A stretch of 29,262 nucleotides of DNA from a virus. Each line of letters starts with the position of its first letter. Position 1 is the first letter of the stretch. The notes beneath the pieces are model-generated. The model did no database searches and was not told the origin of the DNA. It saw only the letters and a program-made list of their open reading frames with translations. Both the position numbers and the translations under genes were made by a program. The stretch spans positions 1-29,262 of the IMG/VR virus record IMGVR_UViG_3300020710_000027. One strand, 5' to 3'. Positions 17,602 through 24,409 of this stretch are shown here, in pieces.

Positions 17602-18084
17602 ATGAATATTGATGTTTTGAATTCATTGTTACGTTATGAATCTGACACCGGTTTAATTTATTGGATTGCCAAAGGCAAAGGCAAAATTAAAAAAAAAGCT
17701 GCTGGAACAATGTTGCAAAGTGGCTATCTTGGAATTTGCATTGGCCCTAAACGGTGGCAAGCGCATCGCCTAGCATGGGCCTTGCATCATGGTTTATGGC
17801 CTAAAGAGCAAATTGACCATATCAATGGCAATCGCACTGACAATCGCATTTGTAATTTGCGTGAAGCCACCAACGCGCAAAACGGAAAAAACCTTGGCGT
17901 ATCAAAATCCAATAAATCTGGCGTCAAAGGCGTTTCGTGGGAAAAATATACTGGACGATGGAAGGCATCAATTCGAGTCAATGGTTTATCAATTTCTATT
18001 GGCCGTTTTGATACTATTGAGCAAGCGGCTTTTGCGCGACAACAAGCCGAACAAAAACATTTTCAAGAATGGAATAGGACATGA
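17602..18084 (+). CDS. HNH homing-type endonuclease with AP2-like DNA-binding domain
   Basis: The ATG at 17602 gives a 160-residue protein. An upstream frame from 17503 would overlap the chaperone gene and has no support. Residues about 52-90 carry the HNH_3 motif 'QAHRLAWALHHG' ... 'IDHINGNRTDNRICNLREAT', with His73 following Asp72 and the late Asn in NLR. Residues about 104-150 ('NKSGVKGVSWEKYTGRWKASIRVNGLSISIGRFDTIEQAAFARQQAE') form an AP2-like DNA-binding domain. This combination is typical of free-standing phage homing endonucleases, selfish genes that nick or cut related genomes lacking them. It lies between fibre and glycosyltransferase genes, an exchange-prone site, and its last four bases overlap the next gene. 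Confidence 0.85.
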   Translation: MNIDVLNSLLRYESDTGLIYWIAKGKGKIKKKAAGTMLQSGYLGICIGPKRWQAHRLAWALHHGLWPKEQIDHINGNRTDNRICNLREATNAQNGKNLGVSKSNKSGVKGVSWEKYTGRWKASIRVNGLSISIGRFDTIEQAAFARQQAEQKHFQEWNRT

Positions 18085-19154
18085 CAAGAAAGCTCAAAAT
18101 AGCTGTTTCAGCAATTAGCAAAAATGAAGCGCAATTTGTAAAACGGTTTTGCGATTCCGCGCAAGATGCGGATTTAATTTCTATTGCGGATACCGGTTCT
18201 ACCGATGACACGGTAAAAATTGCATTGGAATGTGGTGCACAAGTGCATGACATTTGCATTTCGCCGTGGCGGTTTGACCATGCCCGAAACGCTGGAATCG
18301 CATTATTGCCACGCGACATTGATGTGGTAATAAGTTTAGATTTGGATGAAGTGCTGGAACCCGGCTGGCGTGAAGAAATTGAACGGGTTTGGGTTGAAGG
18401 AACCACCCGTCTACGGTATAAGTTTGATTGGGGATGTGGAATTGCTTTTTTCTATGAAAAAATTTTTTCACGACACGGCTACCATTTCCATCACCCAGTT
18501 CATGAATATCCAAGGCCTGATGGCCGCACAAATGAAATCTACGCACACACGGATATGCTGCTGGTTAGCCACCATCCGGACCCAACCAAATCGCGTGGGC
18601 AATATATGCCTTTGCTGGAACTGGCGGTAAAAGAAGACCCGCGCTGCCCGCGAAATGCGTTTTACCATGCCCGTGAATTGACGTTTTACGCCCGTTGGCA
18701 AGAAGCCATCGACGCTTTGAATCGTTACTTGGCTATGCCTGAATCCAATTGGCAAAACGAACGCTGCTATGCCATGCGGCTATTGGGCAAATCACACGAT
18801 GAATTGGGTAACGGTTGGGAAGCCCACAAATGGTTACGCTTGGCTTGCGCTGAAGCACCAAACACCCGCGAACCTTGGGTGGAACTATCTATGTTTTGCT
18901 ATCGTCGGGAACTTTGGGTGGAATCATATTCAGCGGCCAAGCAAGCACTGGAAATTACTGATAAACAGGCGGTTTACACAATGGACCCGTCGGTTTGGAC
19001 GGAAAAACCGCACGACTTGGCAAGTATCAGCGCATGGCATCTTGGTTTAAAAGATGAAGCTATCTTGCAGTGCCAAAAAGCATTAGAATTCAACCCACAA
19101 GATGAACGCCTAGTTGCGAACCTACAAAACATGACACAAGTAGATTCCCCATAA
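18081..19154 (+). CDS. GT2 glycosyltransferase with C-terminal TPR-like repeats
   Basis: The 357-residue protein has a GT-A fold N-terminus. 'IAVSAISKNEAQFVKRF' leads to 'IADTGSTDDT' (about 35-44), then 'WRFDHARNAGI' (63-73) and 'VVISLDLDEVL' (82-92). These supply the nucleotide-sugar binding Asp and the DxD metal site. Residues about 120-180 include 'YHFHHPVHEYPRPDG'. Residues about 185-350 are helical repeats of TPR character ('AFYHARELTFYARWQEAIDALNRYLA', 'ISAWHLGLKDEAILQCQKALEFNP'). There is no signal peptide or TM segment, so the enzyme is cytoplasmic. It is embedded between fibre and lysis genes. It may glycosylate virion proteins or alter host surface sugars; the sequence does not decide. 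Confidence 0.85.
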   Translation: MTRKLKIAVSAISKNEAQFVKRFCDSAQDADLISIADTGSTDDTVKIALECGAQVHDICISPWRFDHARNAGIALLPRDIDVVISLDLDEVLEPGWREEIERVWVEGTTRLRYKFDWGCGIAFFYEKIFSRHGYHFHHPVHEYPRPDGRTNEIYAHTDMLLVSHHPDPTKSRGQYMPLLELAVKEDPRCPRNAFYHARELTFYARWQEAIDALNRYLAMPESNWQNERCYAMRLLGKSHDELGNGWEAHKWLRLACAEAPNTREPWVELSMFCYRRELWVESYSAAKQALEITDKQAVYTMDPSVWTEKPHDLASISAWHLGLKDEAILQCQKALEFNPQDERLVANLQNMTQVDSP

Positions 19155-23232: not shown

Positions 23233-23257
23233 CGTTCATTGTATAGTAAACTGAACG
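23233..23257. promoter_or_regulatory. Operator-like palindrome between divergent genes
   Basis: The perfect 6-bp arms CGTTCA (23233-23238) and TGAACG (23252-23257) are separated by 13 bases. The site fills the short gap between the leftward operon and the Cro-like gene and overlaps the leftward -10. A plus-strand TATAGT (23242-23247) inside it could be the -10 of the repressor gene, which would then have a leader of only a few bases. No second copy of the site was noticed elsewhere in the window. Confidence 0.5.
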
Positions 23258-23265
23258 GATGACAA
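23238..23265 (-). promoter_or_regulatory. Putative leftward promoter of the recombination operon
   Basis: On the minus strand, TTGTCA (23265-23260) and TACAAT (23243-23238) are separated by 16 bases; each matches the sigma-70 consensus at five of six positions. The start would fall near 23231, giving a leader of about 25 bases before the first gene. The -10 and part of the spacer lie inside the palindrome at 23233-23257, so a bound repressor would block it. Confidence 0.55.
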
Positions 23266-23411
23266 AAGAAATTGCAATTAAATTGGCAGGTGGGTCGAAC
23301 GCATTGGCGCGACTGTTGGGCATCACAAAAGGCGCGGTGTCGCAATGGAAGGCCATTCCAAAGGGTCGGCTTTACGACTTGCGAAACTTGCGGCCCGAAT
23401 GGTTTTATTGA
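23259..23411 (+). CDS. Cro/YdaS-like transcriptional repressor
   Basis: This short gene encodes 50 residues: 'MTKEIAIKLAGGSNALARLL' followed by 'GITKGAVSQWKAIPKGRLYD' and ending 'LRNLRPEWFY'. The helix-turn-helix at about residues 13-31 ('NALARLLGITKGAVSQWK') and the 'IP..R...L' segment are the Cro/YdaS hallmark. It is short for the family (about 60-75) but complete. It lies divergent to the recombination operon across a 52-base control region with a palindrome, as expected for an autoregulating Cro-type switch. There is no clear ribosome-binding site, so translation may be leaderless or weak. No CI-like repressor is in the window. Confidence 0.85.
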   Translation: MTKEIAIKLAGGSNALARLLGITKGAVSQWKAIPKGRLYDLRNLRPEWFY

Positions 23412-23434
23412 CAAGGCAAATTTTCGTGTATACT
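23408..23434 (+). promoter_or_regulatory. Strong-looking rightward promoter overlapping the repressor stop codon
   Basis: TTGACA (23408-23413, perfect -35) and TATACT (23429-23434, five of six) are separated by 15 bases, with TG directly before the -10. The spacer is short. The -35 contains the TGA stop of the Cro-like gene. The start would fall near 23441, exactly at the base of the first RNA hairpin. It should drive the structured leader and the early operon starting at 23845. Confidence 0.6.
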
Positions 23435-23440
23435 CAGAAC

Positions 23441-23597
23441 CGTCTAGAGTGGCATCTGGACGATGAAGTGATTAAATTAACCCCGCAGGGTACTGTGTGG
23501 TCTTGTCGTACGGCAAGCGAGTCTTTTGAGTCACTTCAATCGTCTTGCTGTTGCTCTCGCCAAGAGCCAAGACCACAGAGCATCTTGCGGGGTTTTT
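23441..23597 (+). ncRNA. Structured RNA with 5' hairpin, long closing stem and terminator-like end
   Basis: The predicted start is followed by an 8-bp hairpin (23441-23448/23455-23462, CGTCTAGA/TCTGGACG with one G-U and a 6-base loop). A 9-bp stem AACCCCGCA/TGCGGGGTT (23479-23487/23586-23594) closes a domain that ends in five T. Inside it is a 10-bp perfect stem TGTGGTCTTG/CAAGACCACA (23496-23505/23568-23577) and a GCGAG/CTCGC stem (23517-23521/23556-23560). A crossing alternative, CGATGAAGTGA with TCACTTCAATCG (23461-23471/23531-23542, 11 pairs and one bulge), cannot nest with the closing stem. No credible coding frame covers it. It could be a free small RNA, an attenuator, or a put-like antitermination leader. 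Confidence 0.65.
23586..23597 (+). terminator. 3' arm and T-run of the leader's long terminator stem
   Basis: The 3' arm TGCGGGGTT merges into a run of five T (23593-23597), followed by GCTTTT. Its 5' partner lies about 100 bases upstream. When paired, it resembles an intrinsic terminator closing a long hairpin. When the alternative pairing at 23461-23542 forms, the 5' arm is trapped and termination should fail. Confidence 0.5.
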
Positions 23598-23607
23598 GCT
23601 TTTGGAC

Positions 23608-23800
23608 TGCCCAATGCGGTACGTCGATGGTTGGGCATGAGATACCCCGTTACATGAGCGAACCAAAGCGGGGAACGTGGGCGAAGTCTAGAGCGTGGTG
23701 GTTGAAAATAGTCTGGACAGTGCGATGCGAGGACATGGCTCCGAAAAGCAGAAGGCACAAGCGAACTTTGGTTTTGACCACGGTTAGGCTGTGCTTTGCT
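23608..23800 (+). ncRNA. Second structured segment of the leader
   Basis: Several perfect helices occupy this gene-free part. They are TGCCCAA/TTGGGCA (23608-23614/23631-23637), CCCCG/CGGGG (23645-23649/23669-23673) and GTCTAGA/TCTGGAC (23686-23692/23712-23718), the last being the same stem as the 5' hairpin of the first segment. A compound hairpin at 23747-23800 has AGCA/TGCT and GCACA/TGTGC around an inner AACTxTGGT-TTTG-ACCAxGGTT hairpin (23764-23785). An alternative long-range pair AACCAAAG/CTTTGGTT (23661-23668/23766-23773) competes with the inner hairpin. No tRNA features (T-loop, anticodon arm) or credible protein were found. Together with the first segment it would form a leader of about 400 bases before the early operon. 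Confidence 0.5.
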
Positions 23801-23844
23801 CAAACATTCACCAAAAAGCAGTTTAAAAACAGAAAGGAAATCAC

Positions 23845-24063
23845 ATGATATTAAGTAACAGTTACCCAACTGAAGTTTATGTTTCAGACATGGGTTATTT
23901 CGTAATAAAACAAGATTGTTTTGAATGTGGACACCAAACGCAATTTTTGTTTACTCCCGACCAAACAAAACTTTTGTTTAATTTGTTGCCTGACTTTTTA
24001 AAAGAGCAACAAGACAAATGGACCGGGTTACATTCACCACATGAAAGCACAAACGATGAATGA
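23845..24063 (+). CDS. Small early protein of unknown function
   Basis: The 72-residue protein is the first gene after the structured leader, with a good AAAGGA ribosome-binding site seven bases before ATG. It contains 'YFVIKQDCFECGHQTQFLFTPDQTKLLFNLLPDFLKEQQDKWTG'. One CxxC-G pair ('CFECGH') could be half of a zinc site, but there is no second pair in the chain, so zinc binding would require dimerisation. It overlaps the next gene. No family is recognised. A first-position early gene may be a regulator or host-takeover factor; that is speculation. Confidence 0.65.
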   Translation: MILSNSYPTEVYVSDMGYFVIKQDCFECGHQTQFLFTPDQTKLLFNLLPDFLKEQQDKWTGLHSPHESTNDE

Positions 24064-24409
24064 ATCAGGATTTGAGCGTTTTTGGGCAGCTTGGCCTAAG
24101 TCAACAAGAAAAGGCGCGAAATCGGCTTGTTTGCAAAAATGGGCCAAACTTTATTGCGAAACTTGTTGTGACCAAATTATCAAACACGTTGAATGGATGA
24201 AAACCACGGACCAATGGCGAAAGATGGATGGCGCATACATTCCAGCACCTTTGGTTTACCTTAACCAGCAACGATGGGATGGCGCTGAAATCCCTGAGAC
24301 TAAAAAGCAGGTCAGCACCTTGGAAATTATTGCTCAAGAACGCGCAAAAGCCGTTCCAATGCCTGACCATATTCGTGAACGTTTAAACCAATTAAGGGGT
24401 AAAAATTGA
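24041..24409 (+). CDS. Replication-associated protein (helicase-loader/initiator C-terminal type)
   Basis: The 122-residue protein contains 'FERFWAAWPKSTRKGAKSACLQKWAKL' and 'WRKMDGAYIPAPLVYLNQQRWDG'. The spacing 'F..FW..~P....K..A...W.k' then 'w....g.yIP.p..yLn..rWd' is typical of the C-terminal module of phage replication initiators and DnaC/DnaT-like partners. The usual N-terminal winged helix is missing, so this is a stand-alone module. ATG at 24041 or 24056 could start it; neither has a clear ribosome-binding site. It lies at the head of the early operon. A replisome-recruitment role is inferred from the family pattern. Confidence 0.65.
   Translation: MKAQTMNESGFERFWAAWPKSTRKGAKSACLQKWAKLYCETCCDQIIKHVEWMKTTDQWRKMDGAYIPAPLVYLNQQRWDGAEIPETKKQVSTLEIIAQERAKAVPMPDHIRERLNQLRGKN

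Follow-up and report, generated by a model that had tools for sequence, protein, structure and literature searches.

Genomic setting of the leader

The window, i.e. the whole stretch of DNA that was analysed, is a viral contig of 29,262 bases. A leader of 404 bases (23441-23844) is located directly downstream of a gene for a Cro-like regulator of 50 aa (23259-23411; P22_Cro, Pfam PF14549, E 3.6e-11). It is followed by a first gene of 72 aa (23845-24063) without Pfam or PHROGs match and by a replication initiation or primosomal-like gene (24041-24409; PHROGs 9474, E 3.1e-13), with a DNA methylase gene also downstream. The cro gene, the leader with all its elements and the two genes directly behind it lie on the plus strand. 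The cro gene itself looks almost leaderless (region 23238-23265): a palindromic stretch with TATAGT stops ~12 nt before its ATG. A promoter-like pair on the minus strand overlaps this palindromic stretch.

Neither an integrase nor a CI-type repressor was found among the window proteins scanned (Pfam, PHROGs), which makes a virulent life style likely, if not proved. The capsid-region protein at 83-1117 (PHROGs major head) has a sole named-phage match, Methylophilaceae phage P19250A with 51% identity, hinting at a freshwater beta-proteobacterial host. The gene map of P19250A shows no comparable gap ahead of the early genes. A beta-1,4-glycosyltransferase-like gene of 357 aa (18081-19154; PHROGs 13126, E 2e-94) is positioned between an HNH endonuclease gene and the lysis genes, and no tRNA was found in the window.

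The leader promoter (23408-23434, score 11) consists of TTGACA (23408-23413) and TATACT (23429-23434) separated by 15 nt; because of this spacer a sigma-type scan run at default spacing did not detect it. Of 108 relatives, 94 have a promoter-like pair at this position compared to 14 of 109 at a control position, which bears out the strong-looking promoter described in an earlier note on this DNA.

To collect relatives, searches with the two downstream proteins were run and yielded 90 loci, ~25 of which align over nearly 400 nt at 75-88% identity. A motif scan found at least 119 contigs, and 120 distinct leaders were cut out. Relatives of the neighbouring gene occur in several hundred phage contigs, with leaders of this kind at most of the loci that were examined. 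A Cro homologue is present upstream in 69 of 107 relatives, always on the strand of the leader and with its edge at a median of 33 nt from the loop of the first hairpin (H1). Downstream, a homologue of the replication gene is found in 78 of 90 relatives, again always on the same strand, and a homologue of the 72-aa gene in 9 of 90.

Without exception the leader heads an operon on the same strand, usually the replication operon. In L113 (6777-9400) a leader composed of modules A and B (see below) precedes the genes for the small and large terminase subunits, which replace the replication genes, while in L105 and L100 the leader is followed by long reading frames without assigned function. Hence the leader goes with operons and not with one particular gene. 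It is found at one locus per contig in 28 phage contigs (29 searched); the second match per contig is the same place on the other strand, and the extra matches in G394 lie at its two ends. A leader transcript acting as replication primer or origin RNA, as in ColE1 RNA II, would suit the adjoining replication initiator of most relatives. However, the single copy and the non-replication contexts argue against it, and the GC skew does not turn at the leader; we regard this role as very improbable.

The earlier note had seen no credible protein in the leader. A 167-codon frame (23345-23848) does cross it in the window, and one could take the region as coding and its helices as a by-product. Yet this frame is kept open in just 24 of 71 homologues, any open plus-strand frame is found in 29 of 71, and many indels shift the frame, so that the reading frame differs behind the first of two direct repeats (R1, see below). 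A coding role is thereby largely refuted, and the absence of a credible protein stands.

Module A, a pseudoknotted RNA with a terminator-like end

The minimum free energy of the leader is -150.7 kcal/mol compared to -123.4 +/- 5.3 kcal/mol for dinucleotide shuffles (z -5.2). Most pronounced is the stretch 23441-23602 (162 bases) with a z of -6.9, for which none of 200 shuffles folded equally well. Nested folding of the remaining stretch 23600-23844 alone gives nothing exceptional (z -1.0), since pseudoknots account for part of its helices; here comparative data prove the structure instead. The structured leader RNA proposed in the earlier note is thus upheld but not as one RNA, since it is split at a U-tract (23593-23603) into two modules, A and B. 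This two-module build had been overlooked, as had a pseudoknot in A and the direct repeats in B. The abundant compensatory changes described below, together with the lack of a conserved reading frame covering the region, support the view that the RNA is selected. An unsupervised covariation scan with no prior helix input ranks the helices of both modules at the top. A and B are two folded RNAs that evolution has maintained in at least 100 related phages.

Module A (23441-23603) is ~160 nt long. In an alignment of 33 sequences 95.3% of cells are paired compared to at most 47.6% when the partners are slid, and 168 double-change cells are observed versus 52 in shuffles. Its nested elements H1, P1, P2 and P3 are also kept across 85 non-redundant sequences. 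H1 (23441-23462) is located at the predicted transcription start and is the 8-bp 5' hairpin of the earlier note (23441-23448/23455-23462). It is paired in 98.8% of cells with double changes in 4 of 8 pairs, and its loop GUGGCA (23449-23454) is found in 115 of 115 loci examined. P1 is the terminator stem with strands 23479-23505 and 23568-23594; the long-range stems reported before (23479-23491/23582-23594 and 23496-23505/23568-23577) are indeed present within it. It is paired in 97.3% of cells, and compensatory changes occur in its lower half. P1 encloses two arms, P2 (23510-23551; 93.7% of cells paired, double changes in 6 of 11 pairs) and P3 (23553-23567; loop CGCCA, stem paired in 97.6% of cells). 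The 3' strand of P1 shows covariation as well, though its invariance, like that of the P3 3' strand, is in part by construction, since the scan motif includes this strand of P3 along with a portion of P1. The invariance of P3 and P1 is equally seen in loci retrieved through the protein searches.

A further helix, X, is formed by UGAAGUGA directly behind H1 (23464-23471) and UCACUUCA in the loop of P2 (23531-23538). It crosses P1 and hence is a pseudoknot. The 5' strand shows heavy compensatory change and the 3' strand covaries with it: the X strands are hypervariable (74 distinct 5' strands in 115 loci) yet always complementary, with a mean helix of 9.0 bp compared to 6.1 bp for strands swapped between phages. 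Moreover, GCCA (23559-23562) in the P3 loop could form a kissing interaction with UGGC (23450-23453) in the H1 loop, as both loops are complementary and nearly invariant. A parallel to this loop pair, GGCUUGGU/ACCAAGCC, is found in the leaders of L061 and L072. A rough length count, with P2 and X (~19 bp) running alongside P1 (~24 bp) and linkers of 7 and 4 nt, suggests that all helices can coexist.

P1 is directly followed by the U-tract UUUUUGCUUUU (23593-23603). The U-run comprises at least 5 residues in 113 of 115 loci and 4 in the remaining two, so a GC-rich stem with an adjacent U-run, i.e. the arrangement of an intrinsic terminator or attenuator, is found in 115 of 115. This universal U-tract supports an attenuator or a terminated small RNA. 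Promoter-like sites within the second module are rarer than expected (32 versus 58). With no second promoter seen inside the leader, transcription of the operon seems to require polymerases that read through the P1 terminator, having started from the leader promoter or the cro promoter.

From this arrangement we infer a pseudoknotted attenuator, a reading to which we give about an even chance. The leader would represent two cotranscriptionally folding RNAs between a strong promoter and the operon. Module A would fold from the first nucleotide, with H1 forming first, then X between the stretch behind H1 and the P2 loop, then P1, which together with the U-run would act as an intrinsic terminator. 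Termination of a fraction of the polymerases at this site would set module A free as a small RNA of ~160 nt, compact and protected at its 5' end. The remaining polymerases would read on into module B and the operon, as no second promoter is seen between, and B would fold on its own as a second element and form the structured 5' leader of the readthrough mRNA. X and the contact of H1 with P3 might set the termination frequency or respond to a factor binding the invariant part of P1 and P3. The leader RNAs thus probably control the amount of downstream operon transcription, and may also be released as small RNA. No mutually exclusive antiterminator pairing was found in the leader, and X shares no bases with P1, so that any switch would have to work sterically or through a factor. 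The long and branched terminator stem is unusual for an intrinsic terminator and speaks against the attenuator, which moreover gives no reason why module A must be followed by B or by one of its substitutes (C or D, see below).

Processive antitermination of the put type is unlikely. Nascent leader RNA would then bind the host RNA polymerase, as put does at the beta' zinc-binding domain, and the polymerase would ignore pauses and terminators along the operon. The leader is indeed positioned close behind a strong promoter and always ahead of an operon, it folds compactly from the first nucleotide, and the invariant P1/P3 surface could bind polymerase. However, the put elements of HK022 are ~70 nt long with two stem-loops each, occur in two copies (putL and putR, one per early operon) and suppress terminators (PMC9378689). 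Both are elements of a phage early transcript near its promoter that fold during synthesis, but the leader has a first module of ~160 nt (H1, P1-P3 and X) plus a second module, contains pseudoknots and shows neither the size nor the copy number of put. Its single copy, the built-in terminator and the lack of an excess of intrinsic terminators downstream in the operon weaken this explanation. As for a lambda nut/N system, which comprises an N-like protein gene and boxA/boxB sites, no N-like protein was found among the window proteins matched in PHROGs.

It is likewise unlikely that the modules are trans-acting RNAs. Module A, perhaps also B, C or D, would be made early and bind a host factor or a defence protein, the operon being merely co-transcribed. 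The stable fold ending in a terminator, the strong promoter, the strong sequence conservation of A and B and the interchangeable cassettes B, C and D all fit such a role. On the other hand, every module A in the loci examined stands at an operon head, and would be a candidate without target.

Module B and its direct repeats

Module B extends from about 23604 to 23821. In an alignment of 29 sequences 87.4% of cells are paired versus at most 53.3% when slid, a figure lowered by partial misplacement of helix b4, where the window lacks a base; double-change cells amount to 139 compared to 39 in shuffles. The module starts with two hairpins, b1 (23609-23615/23630-23636) and b2 (23645-23651/23667-23673), both with covariation, and contains two pseudoknots. 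In the first (23675-23718), b3 (23675-23678/23693-23696) is crossed by b4 (GUCUAGA/UCUGGAC, 23686-23692/23712-23718). b3 is paired in 100% of cells with G-C, A-U, C-G and U-A types, while the pairs of b4 show up to six types. The second (23755-23800) consists of 23755-23759/23790-23794 crossed by 23760-23765/23795-23800 (91.7% and 97.7% of cells paired). The compound hairpin formerly placed at 23747-23800 is better read as this H-type pseudoknot. The motif GTCTAGA/TCTGGAC is present twice as described (23442-23461 and 23686-23718), and both copies are supported stems. Their likeness looks accidental, since each copy is part of another module and changes in relatives without regard to the other. 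A competition between A and B through CCCCG of b2 and CGGGG of P1 was dropped by eye; the stems vary independently and the modules are exchanged.

The second pseudoknot is flanked by two direct repeats, R1 (23733-23751; ACAU-GGCUCC-GAAAAGCAG) and R2 (23804-23821; ACAU-UCACC-AAAAAGCAG). Their outer bases are the same within a phage but differ between phages: the mean longest common stretch is 7.6 nt within a phage compared to 4.3 nt for swapped phages. Columns 23745-23749 are 86-89% identical to columns 23815-23819 and almost never complementary to them, and the covariation between the two sets is among the stronger in the scan. In ungapped comparisons 17 of 18 mismatches between R1 and R2 are G/A or C/T, 14 of which are one fixed G/A difference in the first position. 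Wobble would still allow a single partner to pair with such variants. A complement of R1/R2 was found neither in the range -300 to +440 nor above chance among the collected loci (65 versus 52 expected).

We know of no explanation for this pattern of identity-linked covariation. The identity-linked repeats are open to direct testing. Module B might act by a sequence-identity mechanism in which both repeats have to match the same partner, either another RNA or the DNA itself, a distinctly doubtful proposal. If true, the leader would be more than a simple attenuator, namely an RNA device with two programmable sites. Translational bypass from R1 to R2 was considered as well, as both share CC and the same following bases and an AUG precedes R1. 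It was rejected: in several phages AUG GCU CCN is directly followed by a stop codon, and R2 carries a copy of this stop.

The end of module B at 23821 lies shortly before the start codon at 23845, and two pseudoknots in a 5' leader could indicate that B mainly serves the first gene as an element of translation or stability, with A only as a transcription gate. Yet the first gene differs between phages, as the low number of homologues of the 72-aa protein indicates, while B stays the same. Such a function is improbable in our view.

Relation to known RNAs and exchange of modules

The earlier note did not recognise the class of the RNA, and Rfam 15 gives no family at the gathering threshold either, neither in the window nor in the loci with modules C and D. 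The best match below threshold in the window is a microRNA model (16.8 bits, E 3), which we attribute to chance. Similar DNA was not found in 50,697 named phage records. When 84,980 genomes were scanned for the exact pattern, a single match was obtained, in Pseudomonas, which lacks H1 and the U-run and is due to chance. A search of 369 genomes from the same class as this Pseudomonas record with the covariance model of module A was negative. No description of such leader RNAs was found in the open-access literature searched, which covers part of the literature. Modules A and B hence appear to be previously uncatalogued RNAs.

Phage P4 likewise has a long gene-free leader with CI RNA before its replication genes, in which premature termination is controlled via seqA, seqB and seqC; control by premature termination is what we propose here too. 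In P4, however, the segments are complementary. In the leader studied here no segment complementary to two other leader segments is found, and the only long repeats are R1 and R2, for which no complementary partner was detected. IsrK of prophage Gifsy-1 gives rise to a short terminated small RNA and a readthrough mRNA from one promoter (PMC4825925), resembling the output we suggest for the leader. Unlike the leader, IsrK pairs with its own long form, and no relation in sequence or structure is seen. A SAM-II riboswitch, with pseudoknot and terminator, is predicted to yield the small RNA RZ (PMC9373788). Both are structured elements located at a terminator, and termination there would produce a small RNA, but the X strands of module A are hypervariable, Rfam gives no match, and a ligand-binding role would make A a candidate without known ligand. 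With the ornate large bacterial RNAs GOLLD, ROOL and OLE (PMC12286853) the leader RNAs share an elaborate, conserved structure and an unclear role; they are much smaller, belong to an operon leader with promoter and terminator, and lack an Rfam match.

The modules are exchanged among phages with the U-tract as recombination point. Module A is followed by B in 76 loci, by C in 30, by D in 7, or by others. Conversely, C or B is found behind the U-tract in sister phages whose first module is a different one; in L047 and L050, for instance, B follows a first module of unrelated sequence. These other first modules share the plan of A: a strand from the loop of H1, or one located behind H1, pairs with the apical portion of a stem that runs into a U-run. 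At least 8 different compensated loop pairs are found among them, e.g. GTAGCGGA/TCCGCTAC, GTAGTTGT/ACAACTAC and GTGACAAG/CTTGTCAC. Some of these first modules also give weak matches to the covariance model of module A (E 0.001 to 0.4), in the correct position and on the correct strand.

Structured RNAs can thus occupy the leader of a phage operon as exchangeable cassettes. At least two RNA families (A and B) and the interchangeable C1, C2 and D are represented here, all absent from Rfam. With their many compensated variants the leaders represent a natural test set for the effect of a pseudoknot laid across a terminator on termination.

Among the substitutes for B, module C1 shows 40 double-change cells compared to 11.5 in shuffles (11 sequences). 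C2 shows 8 compared to 3, from too few sequences for a firm statement. In the C2 module of L048 the apex of a hairpin is replaced by a tRNA-like insert (TGATGGCGTAGC...GCTGGATCATTCCCAGC...CATCATCA), in which ARAGORN calls no tRNA. In L120, L125, L128 and L201 the U-tract of module A is followed by one of two additional second modules, D or, in a single case, E, which are likewise unrelated.
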